Positions 1 through 22,895 of a DNA stretch of 23,125 nt are shown piece after piece. The stretch spans positions 1-23,125 of IMG/VR virus record IMGVR_UViG_3300049484_000268. One strand, given 5' to 3'. The translations under genes and the position numbers were made by a program. The first letter of the stretch is position 1, and every line of letters starts with the position of its first letter. This stretch comes from a virus. The notes under the pieces were generated by a model that was not told the DNA's origin, did no database searches, and saw only the letters and a list, made by a program, of their open reading frames with translations.

Positions 1-523
1 CCTTTAAACATATATCAGAATAGTCATTGCTCTGTGTTGCAACTAATGGATTAGTGATATAACAGTTAAATCTTTCCTGCACCTGTTTAGCATAAAATAT
101 ATCAATATTTTTTCCAGATGGCATATGGCACATCTTTGTAATAAAGTTAACAACCCTTCTGGACCCATATATAATAGCATGAGTAGTCCATGCCCTTTTA
201 AGCTCATATAAATTTTCTGAATATTTCCTTAACGGTTGTCGCAAAGTAGCACCCAACCATAAAGCATCCCAATAAGACGGTAGTTGTTTCATGGCATTCT
301 CTACTACATCCCATGATTCCAACATCGTACAGTCATCTTCAAAAACTATGAATGGGAACTCTTTTTGTCTTGACAATATCTGCAGATGTGACTGAGTGCA
401 ACCATCCTCTCCACATGAGGCAACCACCCCAGGAAAACGCTCCACCTCAAAGGGAAACTTGTTCCCTTTAAACCTTTCCAACCTATCAGGTCTGCTGTCA
501 AGATTAATCACATATGCTTTCAA
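1..523 (-). CDS. Glycosyltransferase family 25 (LPS-type), 3' end cut by window edge
   Basis: Translating the minus strand from a TTG at 523 gives an uninterrupted frame of 174 codons to the window edge, so the C-terminus is missing. It opens with KAYVINLDSRPDR, the usual GT25 opening (V-I-N-L-x-x-R-x-D-R). It has a hydrophobic strand ending in an acidic motif, F-E-D-D, at residues 61-64, as expected for metal and nucleotide-sugar binding in this family. A late segment, NPLVATQSNDYSDI, also fits the conserved end of the catalytic domain. GT25 enzymes transfer sugars, typically galactose, in lipopolysaccharide or protein glycan synthesis; the sugar and acceptor here are unknown. No ATG start fits: the nearby ATG at 513 is out of frame and meets a stop at once. 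The TTG overlaps the TGA of the upstream gene (TTGA), suggesting translational coupling. It is the last visible gene of the glycan cluster. Confidence 0.85.
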   Translation of the reverse strand, partial: MKAYVINLDSRPDRLERFKGNKFPFEVERFPGVVASCGEDGCTQSHLQILSRQKEFPFIVFEDDCTMLESWDVVENAMKQLPSYWDALWLGATLRQPLRKYSENLYELKRAWTTHAIIYGSRRVVNFITKMCHMPSGKNIDIFYAKQVQERFNCYITNPLVATQSNDYSDICLK

Positions 524-1032
524 ACTGTTGCTATTAGTATATCGTTTTTAACAAGTCCCTTATCGTAAACTATATTATATTTTGGATTCATGGATCTTAT
601 AACCTTCTCCAAATCCTCAACTCCATATTTTAAATCTTTCCATTCTGCATCATGTGTACGCAGTAACCTCATATCGTCAATAAGAATAGTATGGTCTTTT
701 ATATGATGATTCTTTATTGCCAACAACTCCTCCATCAATGGCACAGGATTAGGACCGCATGCTGATATGTCACCACACCAATGTCCATCGAGCCAAAAGG
801 TGCATTTCTCATTGATGTTTTCAAGTATTTTAGGTAGCATCTCAGTAGAATCACCAAAGATGACCTCTGCCTTTGGAAACCGTATCTTACATAATGTGTG
901 ATAATATTCTGAAAGCTCTATAGAGATAACCCTTTTAAATCCTGCATCCAAAGCAGCCTGAATGCCTTCTCCCACATAAGAACCTGTCTCTATGAACACC
1001 GGATTAAGATATGGTTTAAAGTTATGTTTCAT
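520..1032 (-). CDS. Class I SAM-dependent methyltransferase-like protein
   Basis: The protein is 170 residues from the ATG at 1032; a TTG one codon upstream (1035) is possible but less likely. The N-terminal ETGSYVGEG looks like a Rossmann-fold motif I (E-x-G-x-x-x-G) and is followed by an acidic strand end, ISIELS, typical of motif II in class I methyltransferases. Further on are GDSTEML, WLDGHW and ILIDDMR, the last resembling the D-D metal or substrate motif of small-molecule O-methyltransferases such as TylF-like enzymes. The ATG overlaps the stop of the FkbM gene as TGATG. Its place among glycosyltransferases suggests methylation of a sugar, but the substrate is inferred. It could also be a non-methylating relative, since the family is poorly characterised. 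Confidence 0.75.
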   Translation of the reverse strand: MKHNFKPYLNPVFIETGSYVGEGIQAALDAGFKRVISIELSEYYHTLCKIRFPKAEVIFGDSTEMLPKILENINEKCTFWLDGHWCGDISACGPNPVPLMEELLAIKNHHIKDHTILIDDMRLLRTHDAEWKDLKYGVEDLEKVIRSMNPKYNIVYDKGLVKNDILIATV

Positions 1033-1652
1033 CAATACTTCTTATAAAATGCATCGCCCCATTCGCTCTTGGTCATCTTTGTCATCAGCCTTATAAATCC
1101 ATGATGTTTTAAATACTCATCAATCTCCGATAACTTGCAACATCCTACATACAATTCACCCGTATTTACTTCCGTATAAATGTAATCTATATTTGACAGG
1201 TATTTACCAAAACTTTTTATCACATTAAGCTCCACTCCCTGCACATCAATATTCAGGAAATTATACAAGTTTATATTCTCCAATTCATCAAAGATATAAT
1301 CCATCCTAACTAACTCAATTTCCTGTTGCCCAATGTACTTAACCTTTCCATAATATTTTTTATGTAATCCTAATTCAAGTATTGAGGAACTTTCTCCTCT
1401 ATTGCTTGAGATATTAAGCATAGCTGTTTTCAAAGTATCGTGAACTCCGAGGTTATAATAACGATGATGCTTATACATGCTGATATTCTCTCTTAATATC
1501 TCAAAGACTTTAGTATTGGGTTCAAACCATAATACATTTTCAAATCCGTTCTGAGCATACCATAGTCTCTCCTGCCCTTCATTTGCTCCTATATGAATTG
1601 CCCCTTTACGAGTTGTGATATACTTATCAAGATCAGTAAACAACATAATCAT
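1032..1652 (-). CDS. FkbM family methyltransferase
   Basis: The SAM-binding motif is GAIHIGANEG near the N-terminus, followed by LWFEPN, in which the acidic residue contacts SAM. FLNIDVQGVELNVIKSF is the FkbM signature (D-x-Q-G-x-E), and IDYIYTEVN follows. FkbM proteins O-methylate small molecules and sugars and often occur in surface-polysaccharide loci. The frame is open back to 1748, but the extra N-terminal residues lie wholly inside the fucosyltransferase gene and do not resemble the family. ATGs at 1652 and 1646 both start just before the conserved domain, giving about 206 residues and a 14-20 base overlap with the upstream stop. I choose 1652. The gene is likely translationally coupled and acts on the glycan made by its neighbours, though the substrate is inferred. 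Confidence 0.88.
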   Translation of the reverse strand: MIMLFTDLDKYITTRKGAIHIGANEGQERLWYAQNGFENVLWFEPNTKVFEILRENISMYKHHRYYNLGVHDTLKTAMLNISSNRGESSSILELGLHKKYYGKVKYIGQQEIELVRMDYIFDELENINLYNFLNIDVQGVELNVIKSFGKYLSNIDYIYTEVNTGELYVGCCKLSEIDEYLKHHGFIRLMTKMTKSEWGDAFYKKY

Positions 1653-2433
1653 CCACTTTAATCCATTCTTCTGGGTAGTGCAAATGGGCACTATTTTCCT
1701 CTCCAAGCCAATGATCAGGACAAACAACAATCTTTTCTGGATTATCATTCAATAGTCCTGCCCACCAACTGAATGTACTGTTTGTTGTAAGCTGATGTTT
1801 ACATAAACGCATCAATTCAAACTCAAGATAATCTTCTGATTGTACGAATGTTATATCCCTATCAAAATAATCTCTTGTAAATCTCTCCTTGCACCAGGGG
1901 ATGTCATCGCTGAAAATAAATAAAGACCCTTTAACCCTACTGACAATATCAACATAATATTTGAATGGGAGAGTATTAAAATGACCTTTGCGATGTAATA
2001 GGTAATCTCCCCTGCGTACATGTACAGCTACAGATTCACAACCCTCAATCAACTCCCTATATTTATGAAATTCAGCAGTCTTCACTGTATCTTTGAGTTT
2101 AAACTCTTCTTTAAGAATTGGAAGAATATCTTTAAAGTAATCAAGATATTGCCAGTATCCCACAAAGTTAAATCCATCTTTCTTTAACAATGACATATCA
2201 AAACCTACTTTATATTCTTCAATAGTATGCTGATCTTTAAATCTATTTGCAGGGACATCAGTATTAAACATATTTAACCTGTAAGGTCTGGGATAAACAG
2301 GATGTTTGCTTGTCCTTGTCTCCATCCATGAAAGATCATATGTCACCCTGATACCATTCTCTTTCTGTGCCCTTCCAAATGCATATTGGAAAAACTGGTT
2401 GCCTATGCCTCCCATTAACTTTATAACATTCAT
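1633..2433 (-). CDS. Alpha-1,2-fucosyltransferase-like glycosyltransferase, family GT11
   Basis: The 266-residue protein has the GT11 hallmarks. GGIGNQFFQYAFG lies at the N-terminus. HVRRGDY is the HxRRxDY motif that binds GDP-fucose. FIFSDDIPWCKE follows, and the C-terminal NSTFSWWAGLL matches motif III of the family. Length is normal for bacterial members. These enzymes move L-fucose from GDP-fucose to the 2-position of a galactose or similar acceptor in the cytoplasm. The ATG at 2433 overlaps the previous stop as ATGA. No GDP-fucose synthesis genes are visible, so the donor would come from the host or from outside this window. A fucosyltransferase on a phage suggests decoration of virion proteins or modification of host surface glycan; that role is inferred. 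Confidence 0.9.
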   Translation of the reverse strand: MNVIKLMGGIGNQFFQYAFGRAQKENGIRVTYDLSWMETRTSKHPVYPRPYRLNMFNTDVPANRFKDQHTIEEYKVGFDMSLLKKDGFNFVGYWQYLDYFKDILPILKEEFKLKDTVKTAEFHKYRELIEGCESVAVHVRRGDYLLHRKGHFNTLPFKYYVDIVSRVKGSLFIFSDDIPWCKERFTRDYFDRDITFVQSEDYLEFELMRLCKHQLTTNSTFSWWAGLLNDNPEKIVVCPDHWLGEENSAHLHYPEEWIKVDDYVVY

Positions 2434-3131
2434 AACAGATCTTTTAAAGCAACCTTTGGAAACACATCTATGACACTGTCAGGACTCACATTGATGATCT
2501 CTATCCCTCTCCTCTTCGCATCCTTAGCTATCTCAGGAAATCCTGTAAGATGCCTGTTGAATGTATTCTGCATCTTCACCAACCTGCTTTTCTCCACTAC
2601 CATACCCCTACCGTACAAATCATGCCAGTGAGTAGTATTATTGCCATTCATCTTCATATCGAACCCAAGAAGAAATATCCTCTTTGCTCCTGCATTGGCT
2701 GCCACACTTATTGCAGCAGATCCGCTGTTGCAGTTCCAACTGACCGTTGCAGGGTTATTACTTATACCCTTTGGATGAGACGTATCTCTGTCAATATTCT
2801 TGACCCAAGGATATTTCTCATGCGTAGGATAACAAGAAACCTTTAATCCCTTAAACTTGGAAAGGTTTACCTCATGCTTAACAAACCAAGAATGATCCCC
2901 AAAGAATACCATATCTATCCAGTCACCAATAAGATATGCCACATTAATACCGATGACATGTTTCTTGTGAAGGAAAGACATATAAGGAGAATAGACATTT
3001 GGCGAGGAGGTCCCTTCAAAGACCTGTTTAACCAGGTCATCCGGTATCTCAAACTGATGAGTAACGGACGGACCTCCTCCGAGAATCCAAACATCTCCAC
3101 CCTCCCACATCAGGGGAACACGCCAACTCAT
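2430..3131 (-). CDS. DUF115/MptE-like protein, probable glycan-modifying enzyme
   Basis: The 233-residue protein starts with a Rossmann-like loop, VWILGGGPSV. It then shows GINVAYLIGDWIDMVFFGD, in which the protein reads out an expected nucleotide-binding or substrate pocket. NSGSAAISVAANAGAKRIFLLGFDM follows, typical of the DUF115 (6-hydroxymethylpterin pyrophosphokinase MptE-like) and related sialyltransferase-like fold. Relatives in phages and in flagellin or capsule glycosylation loci are usually annotated as glycosyltransferase-like, without a proven reaction. The ATG at 3131 overlaps the upstream stop as ATGA, and its own stop overlaps the start of the GT11 gene, so it opens the tightly coupled glycan cluster. 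I am fairly sure of the fold group and unsure of the reaction. Confidence 0.78.
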   Translation of the reverse strand: MSWRVPLMWEGGDVWILGGGPSVTHQFEIPDDLVKQVFEGTSSPNVYSPYMSFLHKKHVIGINVAYLIGDWIDMVFFGDHSWFVKHEVNLSKFKGLKVSCYPTHEKYPWVKNIDRDTSHPKGISNNPATVSWNCNSGSAAISVAANAGAKRIFLLGFDMKMNGNNTTHWHDLYGRGMVVEKSRLVKMQNTFNRHLTGFPEIAKDAKRRGIEIINVSPDSVIDVFPKVALKDLL

Positions 3132-10827: not shown

Positions 10828-11113
10828 TATCCCAAATTGTTACTCCTACAGTTTCACCCCTAGCTGCCCGTCCATCGCTGAATACCACATAAGCCCAAAA
10901 CTTCCATGCCCCTTTCTCATCAAGTAAAGTGCTATCCGAATCAAGATCATGGTATATAGTGCCATCCACATAATCCTGTACAGAGGCATCCAATTCCCCT
11001 AACTCACCATCAGGTTTGCGATAATGTATCTGCAGGGTTCTAGCAGCGGTTATATTAACACTGGTAGTCAATATAATCCGAAGACAGGTTTGATCAACAA
11101 ATACTTTACTCAT
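10817..11113 (-). CDS. Small tail-fibre-associated beta-strand protein
   Basis: The 98-residue protein looks all-beta: IILTTSVNITAARTLQIHYRKPDG, then GAWKFWAYVVFSDGRAARGETVGVTIW. This is the pattern of small phage proteins found next to receptor-binding proteins and resembling the N-terminal domain of BppU-like baseplate proteins (K-P-D-G, later D-G-x-x-x-x-G-E-x-x-x-x-x-V). It may be a fibre adaptor or stabiliser. Its ATG overlaps the end of the giant fibre gene by 8 bases, suggesting coupled translation. There is no signal or membrane segment. I am confident of the gene and less so of the role. Confidence 0.75.
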   Translation of the reverse strand: MSKVFVDQTCLRIILTTSVNITAARTLQIHYRKPDGELGELDASVQDYVDGTIYHDLDSDSTLLDEKGAWKFWAYVVFSDGRAARGETVGVTIWDNEE

Positions 11114-14100
11114 ATACTATGCTGTTTTTAGTAAATGTTTCTTTTATCTTGCTACGTAAATCGAGTTCATCAGTTATGGCAGAATTCTGATTCACCACCG
11201 TCATGACATGGCTTCTGGTATCTACCTCTATAGTGACGGGAGATTCCTTGTTAATAGAAAGAGTGATATAACTCCTGCCTCTTATCTCTTCATATCTTAA
11301 ACGGGTAAGACCTATACCGAATATCTCGGTTACTCCATCGGTAAGACCCTGTAATTGCCCTATACCGATCAGTCTGGCCAACTCTGAAGCTATGCCGTAT
11401 GATCTTCCCCTGATCTGCCCAAACCTGCCTAAATAAGCCTCCGTACTGGTTTCACTATCGGATTCCCCTATCAACTGACCTATACCTCTTGCAACTCCCT
11501 CAATAGTAGAAGTGGTGACTATCTCTCCATACAAATCACCCTTGCCACCAAGTATTCCTCCCATTAAAGCATAAGACGGGGTTTCTCCAATTATCTTTCC
11601 TTTCCCTACCAATATCCCAAATACAGTAGCCTCTCCATTACTCCATCCCGGAGTCTCAGCTTCACCAAGAATAATAATGGACACCCGGCAGACTCCATTC
11701 GATTGCCCTGCCAACCTGCCTTTAGCCACCAAAGTGATATGAACAGAAGCTATACTGTTAACCAGGCCTCTTAACCTACCCTTGCCTACATAAAGCCCGT
11801 TATCGGATGATACCCCATTAGTCTGTCCTATTAACTTGCCTTTGGCTACCAATACAGCATTAACCGTTGCTATACCAATGATTTCCCCATCTATCGGATT
11901 GGCTGCAGGGGTAGCATCTCTTAATCTGCCATATAAAGAAGCCTCTGTAGTCAGGAAGGCAATCAATTTACCCTGTGCTAAAAGAACACCATTATTTGAA
12001 GATATTCCATCAACCTCACCAATAATTGGAACATAAAGTATTCCCCGACATATCAATGATGCACTTCCGGAAGTCTCTCCAACTAATTTGCCTTTAGCTA
12101 TCAGAGTAGCAGATACATCAGAATCTGCAAATACTTTTCCTACTATAGTCGGCAGGTAAGTCAGACCATAAATAGAGGAATCAGCATTAACCTGCCCTAT
12201 TAACTTACCTTCAGCATATATGGTGGCACCACACAAGGAGTTTGCCTCCACTGAACCGACCAAATGAGCCTTGCCTGATAAAATACCCATATCAGTTGCT
12301 GCAGAGGAAACCACCCCTTGCAGAATCCCCTTACCTGCAATTACCCCGTTATTGGATGCTACTCCATATATTGCCCCAACCAATATTCCCTTACCTGCCA
12401 ATACTCCGTTATTGGAAGCTACACCATTTATTATACCGGCAATGCTTACTCTCCAACTTATTGAAACATTAACAGAAGCCACCCCATTGATAATACCAAT
12501 GAGTTTGCCTTTGGCAACCAGGGTAGAGGAAATAGAGGCAATACCAGTAGTAATAGAATTTAGATTTGCTTTTCCTGATAAAACACCTGACCCGGTGGCT
12601 GATGTGGTGATTGCCCCTATTAACTTTCCTTTTCCCTTAAATACCCCATTATTAGATGCTATCCCTGAGGTAGATCCTATCAACTGACCCTCGCCTAATA
12701 TTATTATACCTACGCTACATACTCCATTGGTCTGACCCTTCAATTCCCCCTTACCTGCCAGTAATCCTTCTACAAGAGCCTCTCCTGTAGATACCATCTG
12801 AATTATCTGAATACCACTCAGGATACCTCCATACACACTATTCTTGGTGGTGATGATCTCTCCCGAACTCTTGGTAACCAGAGTCTCAGTTCCTGCCTTG
12901 TTGGTAAGTGGTTGGTATTTAGAAAGGGTGGCTACTCCATGAGTAGAACCAAATAACATATGATTAACAAGTCTGCCACTGGCCTTACCTTTGATAGTTC
13001 CTTTAATACTGGCACGAAGATATCCTACAGCTTCACAATAGGCTTCAGCTAATACCTCACCTATTATATTAAATGTACCGAGGGTATAAGCAGTTCCTTC
13101 TACAAGGGATTCTCCATGAATAGCATTGGTGGATTCTTTAGCAGAAAGATTATCCATCCAAGAACCAGATCCATTATATTCAGAACCATATATATTCAGT
13201 GTGGTAACTCCTGCCTCAATATCCTTTACATAAACTCCGTCTTCAACAGGATACCAGTTATCTGCTCCCCAACCAGAAGAAATATCTATTACCCCTGTTT
13301 CAGATAAACTATACTCCCCTGTAATCCTATACCTCTTACCAACTTCAAATATGGCAGGACTAAAAACATACCCTCCATTATTATTAATAATATTAGCCTT
13401 GCCACTACTAATCTCCCAGTTGGAATCTATATCACCCCACCATGAATCATCATCAAAAATACCATTAACTATGAGCTCGTTTCCTAATGATGATAAAGCT
13501 CCTTTACCTTCTAATACTCCATTATCAGAAGCCGGAGCATTAACCTCTCCCTGCAACTTACCGTCAGCATACAGAGGAGCAGTATTGGAAGCTATGCCAT
13601 TGATAGGACCTATTAACTTTCCTTTACCCTTTAAAGCAGGAGTGTTGGTAGCTACTCCGGTGACAGAACCAATCAATTTGCCCTTGGCAGCCAATACACC
13701 TACCAAAGCAGCCCCTGCCCTTACAGTGAAAGGATGGGCAAAACCATTACCTGAATTATATAAAGAAATGAAATCAGCAGCTAAAAGAGCAATTCCCTTC
13801 CAATAACCCACCTCATCCATACGACCAACAAATCCAGCAGTACCAGAATCTCCAAGATGCATAGTCGTATTATTCTTGGCATTAACCGTTTGACCGGATA
13901 AACTACCAGCATCCGATCCATTACGATAAAACTTAATATCCCCCGTCACTCCATTAATAGAAACTCCTACATGATACCAAGTATTTAAATCATAAGTTAG
14001 GAAAGTAGGAGATTCATGACCACCCGTATCAAGAAAACCTAAAGTAAAAGAGACGGCATCTGATTTCCTATATAAGTAAAACGCAGGACCACTTCCCACT

Positions 14101-15263
14101 CCTAAAATAACCTCATATTGACCAGCTCCCGGATCAGCAGTAAGGTATATCCAAGCAGAATATGATAAAACTCCCCCAGCATCTACAGTCCAGTCATCAC
14201 TATCAGGAAACTCAACCTGATCAGTATCATCAAACCCGATGGAAGAATTAATTTTACCGCCCTGCGAATAAGCGATGCCGGTTTCTGTTGTGCTGTTATG
14301 TACATTTCCGGAAGCATCAGCAATATGTCCGGAACTTTCATCACATTTATAATAGGCTTTTAATCCATTAAGTAAACTGCCAGCCGTGGTTCCTGCTACC
14401 CCAATCAACGTGCCATGACCATGTACGGCAGGAGTGTTGGAAGCTATGCCATTGGTCTGACCGGCAATGGCTGACGGCTTAAATCTTCCGGTAGCCATAA
14501 ATGAAGCTACCCCTGTAGTAACTCCATTAAACAAAGATCCTTTACCTTTTAATGCGGGAACGAAAGATGCATTTCCTGTAGCACTGGCTATCAGTCCTGA
14601 CCAAGTAATCTTAATCTGACCATTATTGCCCTTTCCGGAAGCCTTCATGGTAGTTCCTAAGTTACCACCTGCAGCTCCACCACCTCCACCAGGAACACTA
14701 CCGTCAGTACCTGCCGAGTTGCTCTGACCACCCGTTCCTCCTGCGCCACCGCCATTAGCTCCACTACCACCGCTGGCAGGATTGCCGTTTGCTCCATTCT
14801 CTCCCTTTCCTGAAGAACCAGCACCAGCACCTCCTCCTCCACCAACCATAGCAGCATTGGCAGCTCCATTACCACCATTGTACCCTACCCCTCCTCCAGG
14901 AATAACACAAGAGGTATTTAATCCAGCAGAACCACCTGCTCCTGTGTTTAATCCCCTTCCTCCGAAGTGGGCACGAATCTCATTATTATTAAACTGGGAG
15001 TTCTGACCATTTGCCCCGTTGGCATTATTAGCCGGAGCCGCACCACCGCCTCCAACCGCTATGGTATAAGTAGTACCTAAAGCCACCGTAACATTCGCCC
15101 TGACATATGCCCCACCGCCACCGCCACCGGCAGCATGAGCAGAGGTAGTACGACCATAGTGACCTCCTGAGCCACCGCCACCCCATACCTCTACCTGTAT
15201 GGAACCACTGACAGGAGCGAGCCATGATGTATTTGCCGTACTATTGAATGTTATGCTTCCCAT
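11106..15263 (-). CDS. Giant repeat-rich tail fibre/adhesin with glycine-rich, LamG-like and jelly-roll-like domains
   Basis: The 1385-residue protein begins with a glycine-rich region (about residues 1-223) with many G-G-G-G runs. LamG/concanavalin-like features occupy about 299-508 (LKAYYKCDESSGHIADASGN, LSYSAWIYL, WYHVGVSINGVTGDIKFYRNG, MDEVGYWKGIAL). A jelly-roll-like segment lies at about 595-715 (LIVNGIFDDDSWWG then YRITGEYSL), like carbohydrate-binding modules. The rest is 20-residue repeats with a core such as GVASNNGVLAGKGKLIG, in two blocks flanking the globular domains and a long C-terminal run. A short unrelated tail follows (residues 1318-1385). There is no signal peptide. The likely role is receptor or glycan binding as a long fibre. 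A GGTGA-like site precedes the ATG at 15263. Its stop overlaps the next gene. A cell-surface adhesin is less likely in this phage context. Confidence 0.85.
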   Translation of the reverse strand: MGSITFNSTANTSWLAPVSGSIQVEVWGGGGSGGHYGRTTSAHAAGGGGGGAYVRANVTVALGTTYTIAVGGGGAAPANNANGANGQNSQFNNNEIRAHFGGRGLNTGAGGSAGLNTSCVIPGGGVGYNGGNGAANAAMVGGGGGAGAGSSGKGENGANGNPASGGSGANGGGAGGTGGQSNSAGTDGSVPGGGGGAAGGNLGTTMKASGKGNNGQIKITWSGLIASATGNASFVPALKGKGSLFNGVTTGVASFMATGRFKPSAIAGQTNGIASNTPAVHGHGTLIGVAGTTAGSLLNGLKAYYKCDESSGHIADASGNVHNSTTETGIAYSQGGKINSSIGFDDTDQVEFPDSDDWTVDAGGVLSYSAWIYLTADPGAGQYEVILGVGSGPAFYLYRKSDAVSFTLGFLDTGGHESPTFLTYDLNTWYHVGVSINGVTGDIKFYRNGSDAGSLSGQTVNAKNNTTMHLGDSGTAGFVGRMDEVGYWKGIALLAADFISLYNSGNGFAHPFTVRAGAALVGVLAAKGKLIGSVTGVATNTPALKGKGKLIGPINGIASNTAPLYADGKLQGEVNAPASDNGVLEGKGALSSLGNELIVNGIFDDDSWWGDIDSNWEISSGKANIINNNGGYVFSPAIFEVGKRYRITGEYSLSETGVIDISSGWGADNWYPVEDGVYVKDIEAGVTTLNIYGSEYNGSGSWMDNLSAKESTNAIHGESLVEGTAYTLGTFNIIGEVLAEAYCEAVGYLRASIKGTIKGKASGRLVNHMLFGSTHGVATLSKYQPLTNKAGTETLVTKSSGEIITTKNSVYGGILSGIQIIQMVSTGEALVEGLLAGKGELKGQTNGVCSVGIIILGEGQLIGSTSGIASNNGVFKGKGKLIGAITTSATGSGVLSGKANLNSITTGIASISSTLVAKGKLIGIINGVASVNVSISWRVSIAGIINGVASNNGVLAGKGILVGAIYGVASNNGVIAGKGILQGVVSSAATDMGILSGKAHLVGSVEANSLCGATIYAEGKLIGQVNADSSIYGLTYLPTIVGKVFADSDVSATLIAKGKLVGETSGSASLICRGILYVPIIGEVDGISSNNGVLLAQGKLIAFLTTEASLYGRLRDATPAANPIDGEIIGIATVNAVLVAKGKLIGQTNGVSSDNGLYVGKGRLRGLVNSIASVHITLVAKGRLAGQSNGVCRVSIIILGEAETPGWSNGEATVFGILVGKGKIIGETPSYALMGGILGGKGDLYGEIVTTSTIEGVARGIGQLIGESDSETSTEAYLGRFGQIRGRSYGIASELARLIGIGQLQGLTDGVTEIFGIGLTRLRYEEIRGRSYITLSINKESPVTIEVDTRSHVMTVVNQNSAITDELDLRSKIKETFTKNSIVYE
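11312..12776 (-). repeat. Main block of about 24 tandem 20-residue (60-bp) repeats
   Basis: Residues of the giant fibre in this stretch follow a 20-residue period with a core G-V-A-S-N-N-G-V-L-A-G-K-G-x-L-x-G and a variable spacer. Copies diverge, so the DNA repeat is imperfect. Smaller groups occur at about 14369-14591 and 13481-13721. The strand-turn pattern suggests a long beta-solenoid or beta-prism stalk; the fold is inferred. Confidence 0.8.
13481..13721 (-). repeat. Second block of 20-residue repeats between LamG-like and jelly-roll-like domains
   Basis: Residues around 515-595 contain at least three 20-residue units (GVATNTPALKGKGKLIGPIN, GIASNTAPLYADGKLQGEVN and a related third), in register with the main block. 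They separate the LamG-like from the jelly-roll-like segment. Confidence 0.75.
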
Positions 15264-15266
15264 ATA

Positions 15267-17477
15267 TTAATCACCTATCCCTATAGTATTTTCTGCATAA
15301 ACCATCTCATAATGATCAGTATCGTAATTCAAATAAGATTGCACTATCTTAATACCAGTATTAGAAACCCTTTGATGAGTTACAGTTCTTCCGTCAATTA
15401 TTATATCGACTTCAGAATCTGTAAAATCCACATTCATACAACCATCCTTAAAATCATTAAAAGCGGCATAATCAGGGAGAATTAAATTATAACAACCTGA
15501 ACCAAAGGTCATGCTACTACAATATGAACCAAAAGTCATGTTATTACAATTTGATCCAAAGGTCATGGCACTAGCTATAACAAAGGTCATGGCATTACAA
15601 TTTGAACCAAAGGTCATGTCATAACAATTTGAACCAAAGGTCATGTAACCGCAACCTGAATCAAAGGTCAGGTAATAACAATTTGAACCAAAGGTCATGG
15701 CATTGCAACTTGCACCAAAGGTCATGGTATAACAACCTGAACCAAAGGTTATGTTACCACAACCTGCACCAAAGGTCATGGTATAACAACCTGAACCAAA
15801 GGTCATGTTACCACAACCTGCACCAAAGGTCATGGTATAACAACCTGAACCAAAGGTCATGTTACCACAACCTGCACCAAAGGTCATGGTATAACAACCT
15901 GAACCAAAGGTCATGTTAGTACAACCTATATAAAAGGTCAGGGCATTACAATTTGAACCAAAGGTCATGTAACCGCAACCTGAATCAAAGGTCAGGTAAT
16001 AACAATTTGAACCAAAGGTCATGGCATAACAACCTGAACCAAAGGTCATGTTAGTACAACCTATATAAAAGGTCAGGAATGGAACCTTTTGTAAACAAAC
16101 CCGTCCATCTGAAATATCAATATTATAACAGGACTCCCCAAATACAGTAACATCCAAAAAATCTTCGATGTCAGGATTGAGATTAACAGTACCGTTAGGT
16201 AGATAATTAGGATGATAACTTAAATACGAACTATTATATGTGTTATACAAGGCTTTCCACCTGTTAGATGTATCAGGAGTCTCCGTCACAGAACGACTTG
16301 CCACAGTACTCACCACTCCGGTCAAATTCCAACCAAGCCCCTCTGCCTGAGCAATAGTAGGGGCATTAAACGGAGTAGCAGCCACACTTGCCGTAAATAC
16401 AAGCAACCCAGTATCAGCGGTAAGGGTGATCCCTATTGCTGAATAATCAGCAGCATAAGCCGTAACAAAATCACTGGCGGTGGTAGTTAAATCCGAGTTA
16501 AATACCACATTCCTGTTAAAAGCCCCATCTATATTAATAACAGCCTCCCCTACAGTTCCTTTTAAAGTTATAGTCGATACCTGACAGGTATCCTCAATAG
16601 ACGCTATTGCCTTATAAATAACATATTCACAACTTACAAAATCACCTGAGTTATATTCCTTTTCCTCCCATGCGGGTTGGTCAATGGTATATTTCCTATA
16701 AGTAAATACCCTCCAATCAAGAGGAGCCTTCAGGCAATTTACAGTATCTTCCCGATAAGTGATAAGTCCTTTATAACCTGGAACTTCTTCAAAAGTAAAA
16801 TAATCCCTAAATGGAATTAATCCCGTAATAGGCAGAGTTCCCACTCTATACGAAATCTTATCTGTTGGATAAACCATTGACTGAGCCTCCAACTCCAATT
16901 GATCAACATCTAAAGCAGTGACAAGGAGTGGTTCTACGTCTCCGGTAACCACTATCTTGTCTCCTCCAAAGGCCGATACGGTATCCACGGCTCCTGGGCT
17001 TTCAATAAAAGTATTATACAATTCCTGGGGAACCCCCTCTGCATCCACTAACTCTGAATATACTCCAGAGGTAGCTCCCCTAAATATAATAACTTCAGTA
17101 GCCCAAGCCGGAATGGCATCACAATTAAACATAACACTTGTGGTGGAATCTCCTTCCTGATAACTACTTTCTACCGAAAAAGCACTCCTCCTCTCTTTAT
17201 AAGCACTATCATTAAAATAACAAGCCTTATAATACCATGTCACAGGATTATCTCCTACCGCATCAGGAGTAACTGATATATTGCCAGGAGCCGGAACGGT
17301 GTCATAGGTAGGAGCATAGATATAATTTATTCCCCCATCATAATCATAATTAACCATCCAATGAACAGTACGGTAGTCGGTAATAAGATACTGTAATCCC
17401 GGCTCAAGTTGGGAGCCTGTTATTAAAGCTATCAGTTCATCATAAGTCACCTCGGTTATAATAGGATGATTTGCCAT
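15267..17477 (-). CDS. Tail-fibre protein with 22-unit Cys/Phe beta-solenoid repeat
   Basis: The 736-residue protein starts with YDELIALITGSQLEPGLQYL and ITDYRTVH, the type of N-terminal attachment sequence I associate with tail fibres of Bacteroidota phages. A middle segment, PLLVTALDVDQLELEAQSM, is also typical of that group. An insert near TITLKGTVGEAVINIDGAF looks like a further beta domain. Residues 468-664 are 22 units of a 9-residue repeat (M-T-F-G-S-G-C-Y-T type) in which F and C alternate at 4/5 spacing, resembling pentapeptide-like beta-solenoids. A 70-residue C-terminal cap (FKDGCMNVDFTDSEVDIIIDG) follows. The regular Cys ladder could form disulphides or a metal-binding face only outside the reducing cytoplasm; that is inference. 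No SD is seen before the ATG. It may be the receptor-binding fibre. Confidence 0.85.
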   Translation of the reverse strand: MANHPIITEVTYDELIALITGSQLEPGLQYLITDYRTVHWMVNYDYDGGINYIYAPTYDTVPAPGNISVTPDAVGDNPVTWYYKACYFNDSAYKERRSAFSVESSYQEGDSTTSVMFNCDAIPAWATEVIIFRGATSGVYSELVDAEGVPQELYNTFIESPGAVDTVSAFGGDKIVVTGDVEPLLVTALDVDQLELEAQSMVYPTDKISYRVGTLPITGLIPFRDYFTFEEVPGYKGLITYREDTVNCLKAPLDWRVFTYRKYTIDQPAWEEKEYNSGDFVSCEYVIYKAIASIEDTCQVSTITLKGTVGEAVINIDGAFNRNVVFNSDLTTTASDFVTAYAADYSAIGITLTADTGLLVFTASVAATPFNAPTIAQAEGLGWNLTGVVSTVASRSVTETPDTSNRWKALYNTYNSSYLSYHPNYLPNGTVNLNPDIEDFLDVTVFGESCYNIDISDGRVCLQKVPFLTFYIGCTNMTFGSGCYAMTFGSNCYYLTFDSGCGYMTFGSNCNALTFYIGCTNMTFGSGCYTMTFGAGCGNMTFGSGCYTMTFGAGCGNMTFGSGCYTMTFGAGCGNITFGSGCYTMTFGASCNAMTFGSNCYYLTFDSGCGYMTFGSNCYDMTFGSNCNAMTFVIASAMTFGSNCNNMTFGSYCSSMTFGSGCYNLILPDYAAFNDFKDGCMNVDFTDSEVDIIIDGRTVTHQRVSNTGIKIVQSYLNYDTDHYEMVYAENTIGIGD
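15486..16076 (-). repeat. 27-bp tandem repeat encoding 22 units of 9 residues
   Basis: Twenty-one units are 27 bp, with a core like GAACCAAAGGTCATG on the plus strand, and one unit (15570-15595) is 24 bp. On the minus strand they encode M-T-F-G-S-G-C-Y-T variants. The total of 591 bases equals 21 x 27 + 24, so the frame is kept. Confidence 0.9.
15713..15917 (-). repeat. 54-bp higher-order repeat, three full copies plus a partial one
   Basis: Units starting at 15713, 15767, 15821 and 15875 are nearly identical 54-bp pairs of the 27-bp repeat (the alternating Y-T and G-N endings). Near identity here against more variation outside suggests recent expansion. Confidence 0.85.
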
Positions 17478-17488
17478 TGTTTTACATT

Positions 17489-18250
17489 TTAAACGTTGCC
17501 ATAATTCCTTACATACTCAGGTATCCTCCATGTCCTTTCCAATACCTCCTTGATGCCGGGATTCTTCTTTACCGTATAATCCGGAAGAGTTTCTTCCCAT
17601 CCGTTGATCTTCTGTTCCTCAGTTATATTATATAGGTGGAAATGAAAACCGCTGTCAGCGAAATTCAAATCCTTCTGTAATTGCAATACCGTGTTAGCCT
17701 TTATTCCATACTTGGCTATATTATACGACAGAGCATAATCATCAATCAGGTGATCCCTCTTGGTGACTCCTCTGGCTTCTTCTGCCGTAGGAAAGATATT
17801 CTCCACGGCTTCCCCGAACGATATATCAAGTGGATGCCAGACATCTATGCACCAATCGGAAGCTATTGTAAACCAGTTACATGAACCCCAATTACGACCA
17901 TCCCTACGGAAGTAATTATTATACCGCCAACGGATATTGGCAAAATCCCTTCCGTTGTGCAGCATCGTATCCTTATTTATATACACAGTCCAGTCAAGGG
18001 TATCGGGATGAATAACCGCATCGGAGTCGATATAAATATTCCAGTCATTGCCCATTTGCTGTCCAAGTTCATAAATCTGCAATTTCTCATATGTCACCGG
18101 CCAGTCAGGAAACTTCCGCTCGGTAATGATATGGAAATCGGCTCCTATTTTGTTAGCATAGAATTTTAGTAAAGGGTAGGTCAGTTTGGTTATCTCAGGA
18201 CAGTAATTGTCAATATTGAGAGTAAACAGGGTTTTCTTAATGCCTTTCAT
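17489..18250 (-). CDS. GT-A-type nucleotide-sugar transferase-like protein
   Basis: The 253-residue protein has a GT-A-like nucleotide-sugar domain. KTLFTLNIDNYCPEITKLTY begins it. YEKLQIYELGQQMGNDWNIYIDSDAVIHPD contains a D-S-D motif of the DxD type that binds a metal and the donor. GSCNWFTIASDWCIDVWHPL follows, then RDHLIDDYALSYNI. This recalls GT8/nucleotide-diphospho-sugar transferases, though the exact family is unclear. It sits between a methyltransferase and the fibre genes, two bases downstream of the methyltransferase stop, so the pair may act on the same glycan, possibly attached to the fibres. The sugar is unknown. No SD is seen. Confidence 0.8.
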   Translation of the reverse strand: MKGIKKTLFTLNIDNYCPEITKLTYPLLKFYANKIGADFHIITERKFPDWPVTYEKLQIYELGQQMGNDWNIYIDSDAVIHPDTLDWTVYINKDTMLHNGRDFANIRWRYNNYFRRDGRNWGSCNWFTIASDWCIDVWHPLDISFGEAVENIFPTAEEARGVTKRDHLIDDYALSYNIAKYGIKANTVLQLQKDLNFADSGFHFHLYNITEEQKINGWEETLPDYTVKKNPGIKEVLERTWRIPEYVRNYGNV

Positions 18251-18252
18251 GA

Positions 18253-18897
18253 TTAGATAGGTTTTTTGGTTAGGGTGAATTTTACATTAGCAATGACATT
18301 GCTTAAATGACGAAACGAGAATCGCTTCTCGTCCCCTGATTTATTATCCATATCAGGATAAAGTTCATAGCCGTCAAGGGCTACCTGCAAGTCAGTATGG
18401 ATAGGATAATGAGTGAGTTTACTACGCTCCCTCCACCCCTTGTCGAAGTACATGAAGGTCTGCTCCGTTATCCCCCTTCGGTGTGTTGGGTCCTGCCATG
18501 CTATCCCGGTATTGTAATGTGGGCAGGTGATATGAATCTTGCCTCCTACCTTTAAGATGCGGTAGACTTCCGTCATGAAACGAATTAACCCATCCGTAGG
18601 AGGGGCAGTGCCTTCTTTTAATGTCTTCAGCCATAGGGAGACCATAAATTTAAATTCGTCAAAATCACTGGCATTGTCTATTATACCCAGAAGATCATTC
18701 AGGGAGTAGTCAAACGACAGATGCTCTATAAAGTGATTACAGATCACATCTTCAGCACTGTCGGAAGCTATATCCCAAGGAAAGAGTTCAAGATTCATCT
18801 GAGCATCCACGTTTTCGGTTTTAACTAAGTCAATTCCAAAATACCCTTCAATACGAATCTGACCGCATGCCAGATTCAGCTTTGGTTGGTTTATCAT
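18253..18897 (-). CDS. SAM-dependent methyltransferase, class I (Methyltransf_11-like)
   Basis: The 214-residue protein opens with LNLACG and VEGYFGIDL-type residues (motif I and strand 2). It then has an HFIEHL motif and VYRILKVGGKIHITCPHY, the usual motif III of Methyltransf_11-type enzymes. Between the last two is a longer helical insert (FKFMVSLWLKTLKEGTAPPTDG). The sequence IAWQDPTHRRGIT follows; its P-T-H-R pattern is common in sugar-methylating relatives. A role on a sugar or glycan is suggested by the adjacent glycosyltransferase two bases downstream. The ATG is at 18897, with no SD. Confidence 0.82.
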   Translation of the reverse strand: MINQPKLNLACGQIRIEGYFGIDLVKTENVDAQMNLELFPWDIASDSAEDVICNHFIEHLSFDYSLNDLLGIIDNASDFDEFKFMVSLWLKTLKEGTAPPTDGLIRFMTEVYRILKVGGKIHITCPHYNTGIAWQDPTHRRGITEQTFMYFDKGWRERSKLTHYPIHTDLQVALDGYELYPDMDNKSGDEKRFSFRHLSNVIANVKFTLTKKPI

Positions 18898-19716: not shown

Positions 19717-19817
19717 TTCTTACCGTTTTTAACTTCTACAAATAACCTATATACCGCCCATATGAGGGCAACAGCCACTGCAGTTAAAAAGATCACTATA
19801 CCTATTTTTACTATCAT
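19713..19817 (-). CDS. 34-residue single-pass membrane protein
   Basis: The product is 34 residues: a short polar start (MIVK), a hydrophobic helix (IGIVIFLTAVAVALIWAV) and a charged tail (RLFVEVKNGKK). It is flanked by ATGA overlaps at both ends: its ATG overlaps the large-terminase stop, and its stop overlaps the ATG of the 83-residue membrane protein. A strong GGGAGG SD lies five bases upstream. Tight coupling and the SD make it a real gene in my view despite its size. It could be an antiholin, a small lysis factor or a membrane partner; the function is unknown. Confidence 0.75.
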   Translation of the reverse strand: MIVKIGIVIFLTAVAVALIWAVYRLFVEVKNGKK

Positions 19818-22366
19818 GTTATCCTCCCTGCGAGTTTTTTACTTATAAGTCTATTAAATGCACCACTACTTGCATCAACAATATCTTTATTAGTGGAAAA
19901 AGGAAAGAATCTGTGTTCCTCGATAAAGTCATGGTTCCACATAGCATTAAGAATCATAAAAGCTCCATTATTCACCTGAACAGAATAAGGATCGGCACGA
20001 GAAGCTTTATCTCCAGTAGGTCTCTCTGCCCTGCATGTAAACCCTGCAAGATTCCTGATTGTGCCCTGAGCCGATTCGAGCCCTCCCGAATTATGAACTA
20101 CAATATCATTAACTAAAAAGCTTTCTCCTTCAGAAACAGTAAGACATCTACAAGGTAATTTACCTATTTTCTCAATAGACATAATCTCATCAGGCAAATA
20201 ATCCTGATTAAAATTTATTTGTTTAAACTCTGCAATTTTTAATGATTTCACCCCATATACCGGAATCATCTTAGCAAATCTACCCATAGATCCATCCGAT
20301 CTTCGCATTATTAACCTATAACCTGTATGTCTTTTTATCTGATAAGATTCTTTCCATGTTCGCTTTCTTAGCATAGTATAAATCCCAAAACGAAGCAGTA
20401 AACTCTGAACTTGCTTTAATAATTCTATGTTAGTGCTATAATAGTCGATATACGGATGCTGTGAAGTAGCAGAGGCACTTCCATCACAAGCAAAATATGC
20501 ACCAAGAAAATTAGCCACACATTCATCTCCCGCTTTTATAACCCAATCAGGGACTGTTTTCGTAAGAGTATTTTTACCTGCCATACCTCTTGCTTTTAAC
20601 CAATCTCTTGAGCCATCAGAGAGATAATATGTCCATCCTTTAGAGCCACCTAAATGCACATGGAATCCAAGAGATTCAGCACAATAAATAATATCAAGCC
20701 CTTCTGATCTATCTGAAGAAACAATACTGGCATTGCAACTCTTCTCAGAACCTCTTGTAAACGTGCAACAGCCATCACCAACAAAATAACCAGCCATCCT
20801 GCATTCTTCGATAGTAGGGTCTTTTTGGATTCCTACATTAACATGTGATCTTAAAGCTAAAACATCTCCTACCTTCAATCTTTCTGCAGTAATCCATCCT
20901 TCAGGAGTAAAAAAAGAATGCTCCAATGATGAATGAATTATCCTTCCTGAATCAGTTGTAATCTTTAATGACTCTAATTCACCCTGTATATGAACCTGCT
21001 TTACTATAACTGGATCACCAAATCCATTAATAATTAAATCTCCCTTTTTAATATCTTTTAACCTTAATTGAGTCCCATCCCGCATTTGTATCAATTCTTC
21101 CTCCCATATCGGACCAGGCTCTTGTTCTATCCATATCTCCACCCCAGTACCATCTGCCTCTGCGGTTTGCCTTATTATCCTTTCTCTCTCATTACTCCCC
21201 CACTGACCGCGTTTCATATCTTCTATCACCCATCGGTTATACGTAAGACGAGTCATCTTTACTCCCACCGTATAAGCTCCTCCGCCCGAAGTGCCTGCCT
21301 TGTCCCAATAGCGAACTGTAGAAACCACCTGATTTAATGACGGAAGGGTATTGATCATTATAAATGAATCCACGTGAAACATACCTCCGCCCGGAGGTAC
21401 TGGGTTCTGTCCCACCTGTCCTGCGTAGCCGTACTGTCCCAGCTTTGACTTGAGATCCGTAAGAGTCTTCCATGATATACGTTTAGTATCTAATAACTCA
21501 TCAGTATAAAACTCTACAAGTTCTGGCGGTTTAACAAACTCCCTGAAATTACGAATCTCTCCAGGAAGGCATATATGTCTGACATTAACCTCTTCCTTAC
21601 TCAGCCAGTGTCCCGAAGGATCGTTTTGTGCAAGTCTCTGCATTATTAATATGACAGGGGTGACATCTTTATCCCTCTTGCGAAGAGGAAGTGTCTGTTC
21701 CATAAAGTGATTGGCATTGGCAAGCTCTACATCAGATGCTGCCTGATTAGGATTTAGAGGGTCATCTACAATAAGCAAATCCCCATGGAATCCTGTTACC
21801 GAACCTGTGAGCGATGTACTAAGCCTGCCACCACCTGTAAGCTGACTGCCCCGTCTGTGCGGCCCTCCCATCCCTACAACTTTCTTGGCAATCTTAAAGT
21901 TGGACTTAACATCCTTATCCTCCTTTATTATAATGTCAGGGTACATCTCCTGAAAGAGCTGACTCCTTAATATATCCCTGCAATACTCTGCACTCTCTAA
22001 AGACAGCTTATCAGAATACGACATGGCAATGACAAGCATCCAATGCCACTTCGTCCAGCACCATATTGGAAACATTATACTGACCAAAGCAGTTTTTGTT
22101 GACCCTGGTGGCACATTAATAATAAGATCATAATCACGAGGCTCCCTACGGCTGACCTTCTCAGCTACTTTCTCAAGTTCTCCACAGAGATATTTAATGT
22201 GCCAATTAGGAGAAAAAGGCTGAGAAGAATATACGGGCCAGAAGTATTCAAGGAAATGATAGAGGGAGCGGTTGTTAAGTTCCCTTGCTATGTTCAAGGG
22301 AGAAGGGATAGCCTCTTGCAGGTGTTCCGGCAGAGGTTTTAGCAAGGTATCACTTATCTCCGTCAT
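19814..22366 (-). CDS. Terminase large subunit, interrupted by an intein
   Basis: The 850-residue reading frame encodes a 509-residue terminase plus a 341-residue intein. The ATPase part has a Walker A-like loop, NVPPGSTKT (84-92), and a Walker B, LLIVDDP (197-203). The nuclease part has YWDKAG (Asp355, motif I), then IEQEPG ending at residue 418 and SGGLES resuming at 760, and DIVDASSGAF (motif III). The intein interrupts the second nuclease motif, so unspliced protein should be nuclease-dead. The enzyme cuts and pumps DNA into procapsids through the portal. The ATG at 22366 overlaps the small subunit by 17 bases. There is no strong SD. Sizes after splicing are normal for the family. Confidence 0.93.
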   Translation of the reverse strand: MTEISDTLLKPLPEHLQEAIPSPLNIARELNNRSLYHFLEYFWPVYSSQPFSPNWHIKYLCGELEKVAEKVSRREPRDYDLIINVPPGSTKTALVSIMFPIWCWTKWHWMLVIAMSYSDKLSLESAEYCRDILRSQLFQEMYPDIIIKEDKDVKSNFKIAKKVVGMGGPHRRGSQLTGGGRLSTSLTGSVTGFHGDLLIVDDPLNPNQAASDVELANANHFMEQTLPLRKRDKDVTPVILIMQRLAQNDPSGHWLSKEEVNVRHICLPGEIRNFREFVKPPELVEFYTDELLDTKRISWKTLTDLKSKLGQYGYAGQVGQNPVPPGGGMFHVDSFIMINTLPSLNQVVSTVRYWDKAGTSGGGAYTVGVKMTRLTYNRWVIEDMKRGQWGSNERERIIRQTAEADGTGVEIWIEQEPGPIWEEELIQMRDGTQLRLKDIKKGDLIINGFGDPVIVKQVHIQGELESLKITTDSGRIIHSSLEHSFFTPEGWITAERLKVGDVLALRSHVNVGIQKDPTIEECRMAGYFVGDGCCTFTRGSEKSCNASIVSSDRSEGLDIIYCAESLGFHVHLGGSKGWTYYLSDGSRDWLKARGMAGKNTLTKTVPDWVIKAGDECVANFLGAYFACDGSASATSQHPYIDYYSTNIELLKQVQSLLLRFGIYTMLRKRTWKESYQIKRHTGYRLIMRRSDGSMGRFAKMIPVYGVKSLKIAEFKQINFNQDYLPDEIMSIEKIGKLPCRCLTVSEGESFLVNDIVVHNSGGLESAQGTIRNLAGFTCRAERPTGDKASRADPYSVQVNNGAFMILNAMWNHDFIEEHRFFPFSTNKDIVDASSGAFNRLISKKLAGRIT
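19823..19828 (-). promoter_or_regulatory. Strong Shine-Dalgarno site of the 34-residue gene
   Basis: GGGAGG lies five bases before the ATG at 19817 and inside the end of the large-terminase gene. It is the main evidence that the tiny gene is translated. Confidence 0.7.
20090..21112 (-). mobile_element. Intein with LAGLIDADG homing endonuclease in the large terminase, non-canonical Pro1
   Basis: The insert spans residues 419-759 between EPG and SGG, where uninterrupted terminases read EPGSGG. Splicing blocks are visible: the start PIWEEELIQMRDG aligns with block A but has Pro in place of Cys/Ser at position 1. Block B has His65 (SSLEHSFF). Block F reads CRCLTV with Cys323. The end is IVVHN followed by Ser (+1). 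The endonuclease has two LAGLIDADG-type motifs, MAGYFVGDG at intein residues 106-114 and FLGAYFACDG at 202-211, each with its acidic residue. It may therefore be an active mobile intein that homes into intein-less terminase genes. The missing Cys1/Ser1 points to a non-standard splicing start. It also lacks the Trp and Thr of the class 3 pattern (Phe67 and Val339 there). Confidence 0.88.
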
Positions 22367-22895
22367 CCGGTTCTATAGTGTCAGTAAGCTTTAAGGGTTG
22401 TCTTTTTATTATCTCTTCAAGTTTCAAAAGATCTTCAGTGGTGTACATCTTCATGCTGATGTTCATGTTCTGCGTATGCGTCACCTCAACCTTGTTTGTC
22501 TCACTCCACAAGTCACGTTGACGAACAGAAAGCCATTTGAACGCACTCCAAGGATCTGGTGGACGATATCTCTTCACCGTAGTCTTCACCCACACCTTGT
22601 CTTTACGGTCAAAGACAGCAACTTCTTCCTCGTAAAAATATCCTGTTGCACACTTATAAGCAGCTTTAAGCACTTCGGTATCCGCTCCCAGCTTCCCATC
22701 AAGAAGTGCCTGACGAAACTCAGGACGGTTCTTTTTCCAATGCACTATCGTAGGATGACTCACCTCCATCACCTTTGCCATCTGCTCTTCAGTAGCCCCC
22801 ATCAGTGCAAGGAGAAAGGCTGCCTCGATCTTACCCGATGTCCAGTGGGTAAAATGAGTGCTAGGGGTGTCTTTGCTTCTTTTTGCCCTCTCCAT
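22350..22895 (-). CDS. Terminase small subunit
   Basis: The 181-residue protein has an N-terminal helix-turn-helix-like stretch, ATEEQMAKVMEVSHPTIVHWKK, typical of small terminase DNA-binding domains. RPEFRQALLDGKLGADTEVLKAAYKCATGYFYEE follows, a pattern seen in many phage small terminases. The C-terminal part is acidic. It recognises the packaging site and loads the large subunit. It is the first gene after the long AT-rich leader, and its stop overlaps the large-subunit start by 17 bases. The ATG at 22895 has no SD. Confidence 0.85.
   Translation of the reverse strand: MERAKRSKDTPSTHFTHWTSGKIEAAFLLALMGATEEQMAKVMEVSHPTIVHWKKNRPEFRQALLDGKLGADTEVLKAAYKCATGYFYEEEVAVFDRKDKVWVKTTVKRYRPPDPWSAFKWLSVRQRDLWSETNKVEVTHTQNMNISMKMYTTEDLLKLEEIIKRQPLKLTDTIEPDDGDK

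Follow-up and report, generated by a model that had tools for sequence, protein, structure and literature searches.

How might an intein with no nucleophile at its first residue, and with only part of the class 3 signature, leave its host protein? The question is raised by a terminase gene in the window, that is, the whole stretch of 23,125 nucleotides analysed here, which is an IMG/VR virus contig (IMGVR_UViG_3300049484_000268).

The intein and its insertion site

The minus strand of the window holds a packaging and head module, with genes for both terminase subunits (the large one being TerL), a portal, a protein of head morphogenesis, a maturation-protease-like protein and a virion structural (capsid-like) protein. 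The intein takes up residues 419-759 of the TerL precursor and has a G+C content of 35% versus 44% in the exteins, and the predicted joined exteins comprise 509 amino acids (aa). The features of this region were as follows (all on the minus strand):

22350..22895, minus: terminase small subunit (PHROG 309, 1.9e-30)
19814..22366, minus: terminase large subunit gene, 850-aa precursor, one open frame (PHROG terminase large subunit, 2.9e-73)
21113..22366, minus: N-extein, 418 aa, C-terminal end ...IWIEQEPG (extein alignment)
20090..21112, minus: intein, 341 aa, Pro1 to Asn341 (sequence, Pfam, predicted fold)
19817..20089, minus: C-extein, 91 aa, first residues SGGLESAQ (extein alignment)
20216..20824, minus: LAGLIDADG homing endonuclease domain, approximate, intein residues 97-299 (Pfam and I-DmoI-type structural matches, model 107-309)
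20774..20776, minus: Asp113, first LAGLIDADG acid (motif alignment)
20483..20485, minus: Asp210, second LAGLIDADG acid (motif alignment)

The head genes are flanked by several glycosyltransferase- or methyltransferase-like ORFs, as judged from their translations (window positions 2-3131 and 17489-18897, minus strand). Two further minus-strand ORFs without a PHROG match are repetitive: in one of 736 aa (15267-17477) a short repeat with Cys (MTFGSGCYTMTFGAGCGN...) recurs many times, and one of 1385 aa (11106-15263) contains long irregular repeats of the GKLIGxxxGxAS type.

A first-pass annotation, made from the sequence alone, had placed an intein at 20090-21112 between EPG and SGG, within the nuclease motif of the terminase, and had suggested a search for intein-less relatives. 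Eight homologous intein-less loci were found, six of them distinct (L002-L009), and since these align without gaps across the exact junction, reading EQEPG/SGG or SSG (the slash marks the splice or insertion point), both junctions are right. The intein thus splits the RNase-H-like nuclease domain of TerL at EQEPG/SGG: in two intein-less homologues the Terminase_6C domain covers the insertion site, which therefore lies within the nuclease domain as had been claimed. In a survey of mycobacteriophages TerL inteins were found only in the ATPase domain (PMC5050341), a distribution that the window intein extends to the nuclease domain. Pro at position 1, likewise proposed earlier, was corroborated by a residue-for-residue alignment of block A, in which relatives of 27-60% identity carry Pro (once Asp) at this position. 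An alignment that would place a Cys or Ser nucleophile at a different first residue was looked for and not seen, and a misplaced intein N-terminus was ruled out, Pro1 being fixed by block A and the exteins.

The insert has the other attributes of an intein: it is in frame and missing from homologues, contains blocks A, B, F and G, ends in HN followed by Ser+1, and has a Hint fold. Pfam matches were obtained for LAGLIDADG_3 (6e-18) and Intein_splicing (5.6e-10), and the endonuclease domain has two LAGLIDADG motifs with the catalytic acids Asp113 and Asp210, both of which the first-pass annotation had recorded as kept. An AlphaFold2 model, built from an input alignment of 26 sequences, showed a complete intein and endonuclease fold with a mean pLDDT of 90.8. 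The best structural match of the model by VIA-align was the TliVMA intein (Z 31); Ssp DnaB (Z 21.5) and gp41-1 (Z 20.4) also matched, versus Z 18.5 and 18.3 for the class 3 DnaB1 inteins of Mch and Msm, respectively.

Splicing residues and the PFCV family

The splicing residues were located by sequence and by alignment to a family of related inteins, for which we use the name PFCV: position 1 is Pro (rarely Asp or Glu), B:12 is Phe or some other residue but never Trp, F:4 is Cys, and G:5 is Val or Ile. In the window intein (all on the minus strand) they are:

21110..21112, minus: Pro1, non-nucleophilic first residue (Pro in 51 of 55 family members)
20918..20920, minus: His65, block B:10 (invariant, 55 of 55 family members)
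20912..20914, minus: Phe67, block B:12, Trp in canonical class 3 (sequence, family alignment)
20150..20152, minus: Cys321, first Cys of a CxC pair (family position: Cys 46, Thr 3, Met 1)
20144..20146, minus: Cys323, block F:4, predicted first nucleophile (sequence, family alignment, spacing)
20123..20125, minus: Glu330, usual place of the block F His (His in 27 of 50 family members)
20096..20098, minus: Val339, block G:5, Thr in canonical class 3 (sequence, family alignment)
20090..20095, minus: His340-Asn341, blocks G:6-G:7, predicted Asn cyclisation (sequence)
20087..20089, minus: Ser+1, predicted second branch point (sequence, extein alignment)

Phe67, Cys323, Val339, Asn341 and the final HN-Ser were thus located where the first-pass annotation had put them. 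Class 1 inteins have Cys, Ser or Thr at residue 1, where Pro is found here, and the KlbA-type class 2 combination of Ala1, Asp F:4, Ser G:6 and Cys+1 is replaced by Pro1, Cys323, His340 and Ser+1. Of the WCT signature of class 3 (PMC5222942), Trp B:12 is Phe67 and Thr G:5 is Val339. Under a working definition of class 3 (no Cys1, and Cys at F:4; PMC7891396), Pro1 and Cys323 place the intein in that class. The earlier reading, neither class 1 nor full class 3, therefore stands as regards the WCT triplet, but not insofar as it made the intein an orphan between classes.

Family members were collected in two scans that were merged and thinned to 55 non-redundant members. The first was based on a seven-sequence alignment, with seeds that lay off residue 1 and F:4 but touched B:12 and G:5. 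It returned Cys at F:4 in every Pro1 or Asp1 intein, and Asp, Asn or Gly at this position in seven distinct Cys1 inteins. As a check on seed bias, members found only by the block B seed (n=22) all had Val or Ile at G:5, and those found only by the block G seed (n=2) both had Phe at B:12. The second scan was seeded only on CxCLTV...F...HN, and was thus unbiased for residue 1, B:12 and G:5, but biased for Cys F:4 and its spacing. Where N-termini were readable it gave Pro1 in 41 cases, Glu1 in one, and Cys, Ser or Thr in none, with Val at G:5 in all; B:12 was mainly Phe, and in some cases Ile, Leu, Val or His.

Across the merged family, the four first residues other than Pro were Asp (3) and Glu (1). 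B:12 was Phe in 48 and Trp in none of the 55 members, G:5 was Val or Ile throughout, and the +1 residue was Ser or Thr. Cys F:4 was present in all 50 aligned members and, by eye, in five mini-inteins; Gln43 was found in 53 of 55. Most family inteins come after a PPxxxK motif, which corresponds to the TerL P-loop in the annotated Caulobacter phages, and both endonuclease acids were retained in 39 of 55. The possibility of a unique oddity or a sequencing error was ruled out by the 55 members.

Five members share the terminase site of the window: the window intein itself, L010/L023, L248, L204 and L260. The closest relative, L010, is 60% identical with the same key residues, and L248 keeps the splicing residues with Val at B:12. 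L204 and L260 have lost the endonuclease and keep Pro1, Cys F:4, Val G:5 and HN/S, a pattern that fits selection acting on splicing independently of homing. Mini-inteins without endonuclease were L204 (153 aa), L260 (134 aa), L210 (134 aa), L216 (152 aa) and L093 (157 aa). The small size of the 134-aa members makes them candidates for splicing assays, structure determination and tool development. In L093 the penultimate His is replaced by Lys (VVKN/S), and the Pro1 mini-intein of L216 (L216:794-1528) lies outside both the P-loop and the TerL nuclease sites (ALGYSM/P...HN/T). Two inteins interrupt the TerL of L010: one, with Cys1, follows MQRLHQ, and the other, with Pro1, occupies the nuclease site (L010:1201-2478 and L010:3001-4023).

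A block-G-seeded scan of cellular genomes gave 80 loci, of which one was recognised as a family member, in Pseudaminobacter soli (Asp1, KCLTV); the remaining loci with a block F listed were mostly of the YDLT/FDLT kind. The P. soli locus (L120, NZ_JABVCF010000004.1) is identical in its splicing-block tree columns to the viral contig L051 and is probably a prophage.

These data bear on whether the window intein has decayed, or only cleaves, with the phage terminase being inactive or supplied in trans. Three positions of the sequence, B:12, G:5 and that of the block F His, depart from consensus, and a decayed class 3-like intein is on record, Arsp-FB24 (PMC3196547). That intein, however, had lost the B:10 His and the F:4 Cys, both of which the window intein keeps. 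Moreover, the whole gene is open, L010 and L248 retain the splicing residues at the same site, which had been a point to check in homologues carrying the insert, and TerL is normally essential. The intein dN/dS (Nei-Gojobori) was 0.02-0.29 among family pairs with enough changes, dS being high in several of them; a near-identical pair gave 0.32 on few changes, one pair was identical and two were saturated. For the window versus L023 it was 0.21 (dS about 1.6). Decay of the window intein appears unlikely because of this conservation, the mini-inteins and the dN/dS values, and an inactive or trans-supplied terminase is accordingly given little credence.

Predicted splicing route

The window intein is a homing intein of phage that most likely splices by class 3 chemistry; it belongs to the widespread PFCV clade of phage inteins, most of which lie in TerL-like P-loop contexts. 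Class 3 chemistry is the best reading of the sequence because the first step of that chemistry is defined by Cys F:4, a residue that also stands in for the absent nucleophile at position 1; family-wide retention of this Cys supports the earlier suggestion that Cys323 may attack first. We infer the following order. Cys323, activated by His65, would attack the Gly418-Pro1 peptide bond, whereby the N-extein would move onto Cys323 as a thioester. The N-extein would then pass to Ser+1, Asn341 would cyclise, aided by His340, and an O-to-N acyl shift would join the 509-aa terminase. The LAGLIDADG domain, for its part, would promote the spread of the intein by cleaving terL alleles that lack it.

The assignment of F:4 to Cys323 rather than Cys321 follows from its distance of 18 residues to the terminal Asn and from members that lack Cys321 and keep Cys323. 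It is conceivable that Cys321 is itself the first nucleophile, or an acyl relay to Cys323, and that a disulfide within CxC pauses splicing under oxidation: Cys321 is present in 46 of the 50 aligned members, window included, and CxC is found too in the canonical class 3 RaK2 TerL intein. Yet Asp1 members have Thr, and one Pro1 member Met, at position 321, all with Cys323, and it is 323 that occupies the place of the class 1 F:4 Asp, which makes such a role for Cys321 very improbable. A class 2-like route, in which Ser+1 attacks the N-terminal junction directly with Cys323 only assisting, is likewise very improbable. Class 2 inteins also lack a residue 1 nucleophile, but the known examples, KlbA orthologues, begin with Ala1, are followed by Cys+1, have Ser at G:6 and depend on Asp F:4 (PMC4031507), whereas here Ser or Thr stands at +1, His at G:6 and, across all aligned members, Cys at F:4.

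Published mutants speak on both sides of the class 3 route. In class 3 inteins splicing is blocked by mutation of Cys F:4, while Thr G:5 and Trp B:12 are needed less strictly (PMC5222942, PMC7891396); AceL NrdHF, an MCT-type intein with Met at B:12, follows the class 3 route and slows only about tenfold when its Thr is mutated to Ala (PMC7891396). Against the route, three class 3 inteins no longer spliced once their Trp B:12 had been changed to Ala (PMC5222942), and the window intein has Glu330 in place of the block F His, although the class 3 AceL NrdHF intein likewise lacks this His. In addition, the class 1 intein gp41-1, when engineered to carry Ala1, Trp B:12, Cys F:4 and Thr G:5, failed to cleave at its N-terminus (PMC7664689), and Cys F:4 in a class 1 scaffold is therefore insufficient alone. 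Together with the dead Trp B:12 mutants, this means that the family must hold other compensating residues, for which Gln43 is a candidate.

Relationship to class 1 and class 3 inteins

In a search with the seven-member family profile the best matches were the class 1 inteins Npu DnaB (1e-12), Ssp DnaB (4e-12) and gp41-1 (2e-11), with class 3 MchDnaB1 at 0.04. A canonical class 3 intein found MchDnaB1 at 8e-24, but as a single-sequence search, such that only the order of hits is comparable between the two. The spacing from F:4 to the terminal Asn was 18 residues in 32 of 32 family members and 30 of 35 Cys1 inteins, versus 20-21 in 11 of 11 canonical class 3 inteins (RecB of ET08 and ten further phage inteins, which served as class 3 references). 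Among the 35 Cys1 inteins compared, Val was usual at G:5, Phe was commonest at B:12, and none had Cys at F:4.

Trees were built from the splicing blocks with the four trait columns left out. A smaller tree, in which one canonical class 3 row fell among others and one long-branch Cys1 intein was drawn in, put the family beside the Cys1 inteins, the alternative arrangement not being rejected (p-AU 0.36). With the Cys1 sample enlarged to 35 and the long-branch row left out, three groups were resolved in an unrooted tree, namely the family (93/89), canonical class 3 (99/99) and Cys1 inteins (91/82); here the family lay beside canonical class 3 at 91/82, with weak support for a sister relation. By these comparisons, the PFCV inteins are a distinct group that unites the class 3 nucleophile arrangement with a class 1-like splicing scaffold, and form a coherent, phage-centred clade that is possibly sister to class 3.

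Among the nearest known systems is the phiCbK-type TerL intein of the Caulobacter phages phiCbK, CcrRogue and CcrColossus (PMC3556154); the phiCbK genome paper of 2012 described a TerL intein, P131-N471, and cited the Bethlehem DnaB intein for Pro1. It shares with the window intein Pro1, Phe B:12, Cys-x-Cys with Cys F:4, Val G:5, HN/S, a TerL host and, in phiCbK, the length of 341 aa. Unlike the window intein, it sits in the ATPase P-loop (PPGHAK/S) of another TerL, is about 29% identical and has lost the LAGLIDADG acids. Canonical WCT class 3 inteins (Msm and Mch DnaB1, mycobacteriophage TerL, RecB of ET08) likewise have no required residue 1 nucleophile, Cys F:4, His B:10, HN, usually Ser or Thr at +1, a phage-centred distribution and a Hint fold; the window intein differs in its lack of Trp B:12 and Thr G:5 and in the shorter F:4-Asn spacing. 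The AceL NrdHF split intein (PMC7891396), with a proven class 3 mechanism, resembles the window intein in having no residue 1 nucleophile, Cys F:4, a non-Trp B:12 and no block F His, and differs in Ala1, its split form, Thr G:5, the absence of a penultimate His and of LAGLIDADG, and another host protein. The class 1 DnaB (Npu, Ssp) and gp41-1 inteins are the nearest solved splicing domains by sequence (structural Z 20-22), but have Cys1.

In a survey of 1701 class 3 inteins, Trp deviated in 6.1% and Thr in 4.6% (PMC7891396), and some phiCbK-type inteins may be among these deviants. No description of the PFCV group as such was found in the literature searched, which was mostly open-access. A Pro1 start and Trp or Thr deviations were already known; what is new, as far as this literature goes, is the coherent phage-centred clade. 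Class 3 has been viewed as descending from a phage class 1 intein deprived of its first nucleophile and rescued through mutations acquired later (PMC3196547), or as having a protease-like origin of its own; the latter view draws partly on a class 1 intein that, given WCT residues, spliced poorly and showed no N-terminal cleavage (PMC7664689). A large natural group with a class 3 nucleophile and class 1-like B:12, G:5 and spacing makes the origin of class 3 testable. PFCV could, as a tentative reading that we hold at somewhat less than even chance, be a second way found in nature of starting splicing from block F, or a surviving early branch of class 3; in either case Cys F:4 would act with a non-nucleophilic first residue in an active site that otherwise resembles class 1 and has neither the Trp and Thr nor the longer block F-G stretch of class 3. 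If so, it would represent the intermediate type postulated between phage class 1 and class 3, and the WCT triplet would be dispensable given compensating residues, for example the near-invariant Gln43. A further departure from WCT was observed in a DarB-like gene of Vibrio phage D265 (L115), which carries a class 3-like intein with Cys F:4, Thr G:5 and Asn at B:12.
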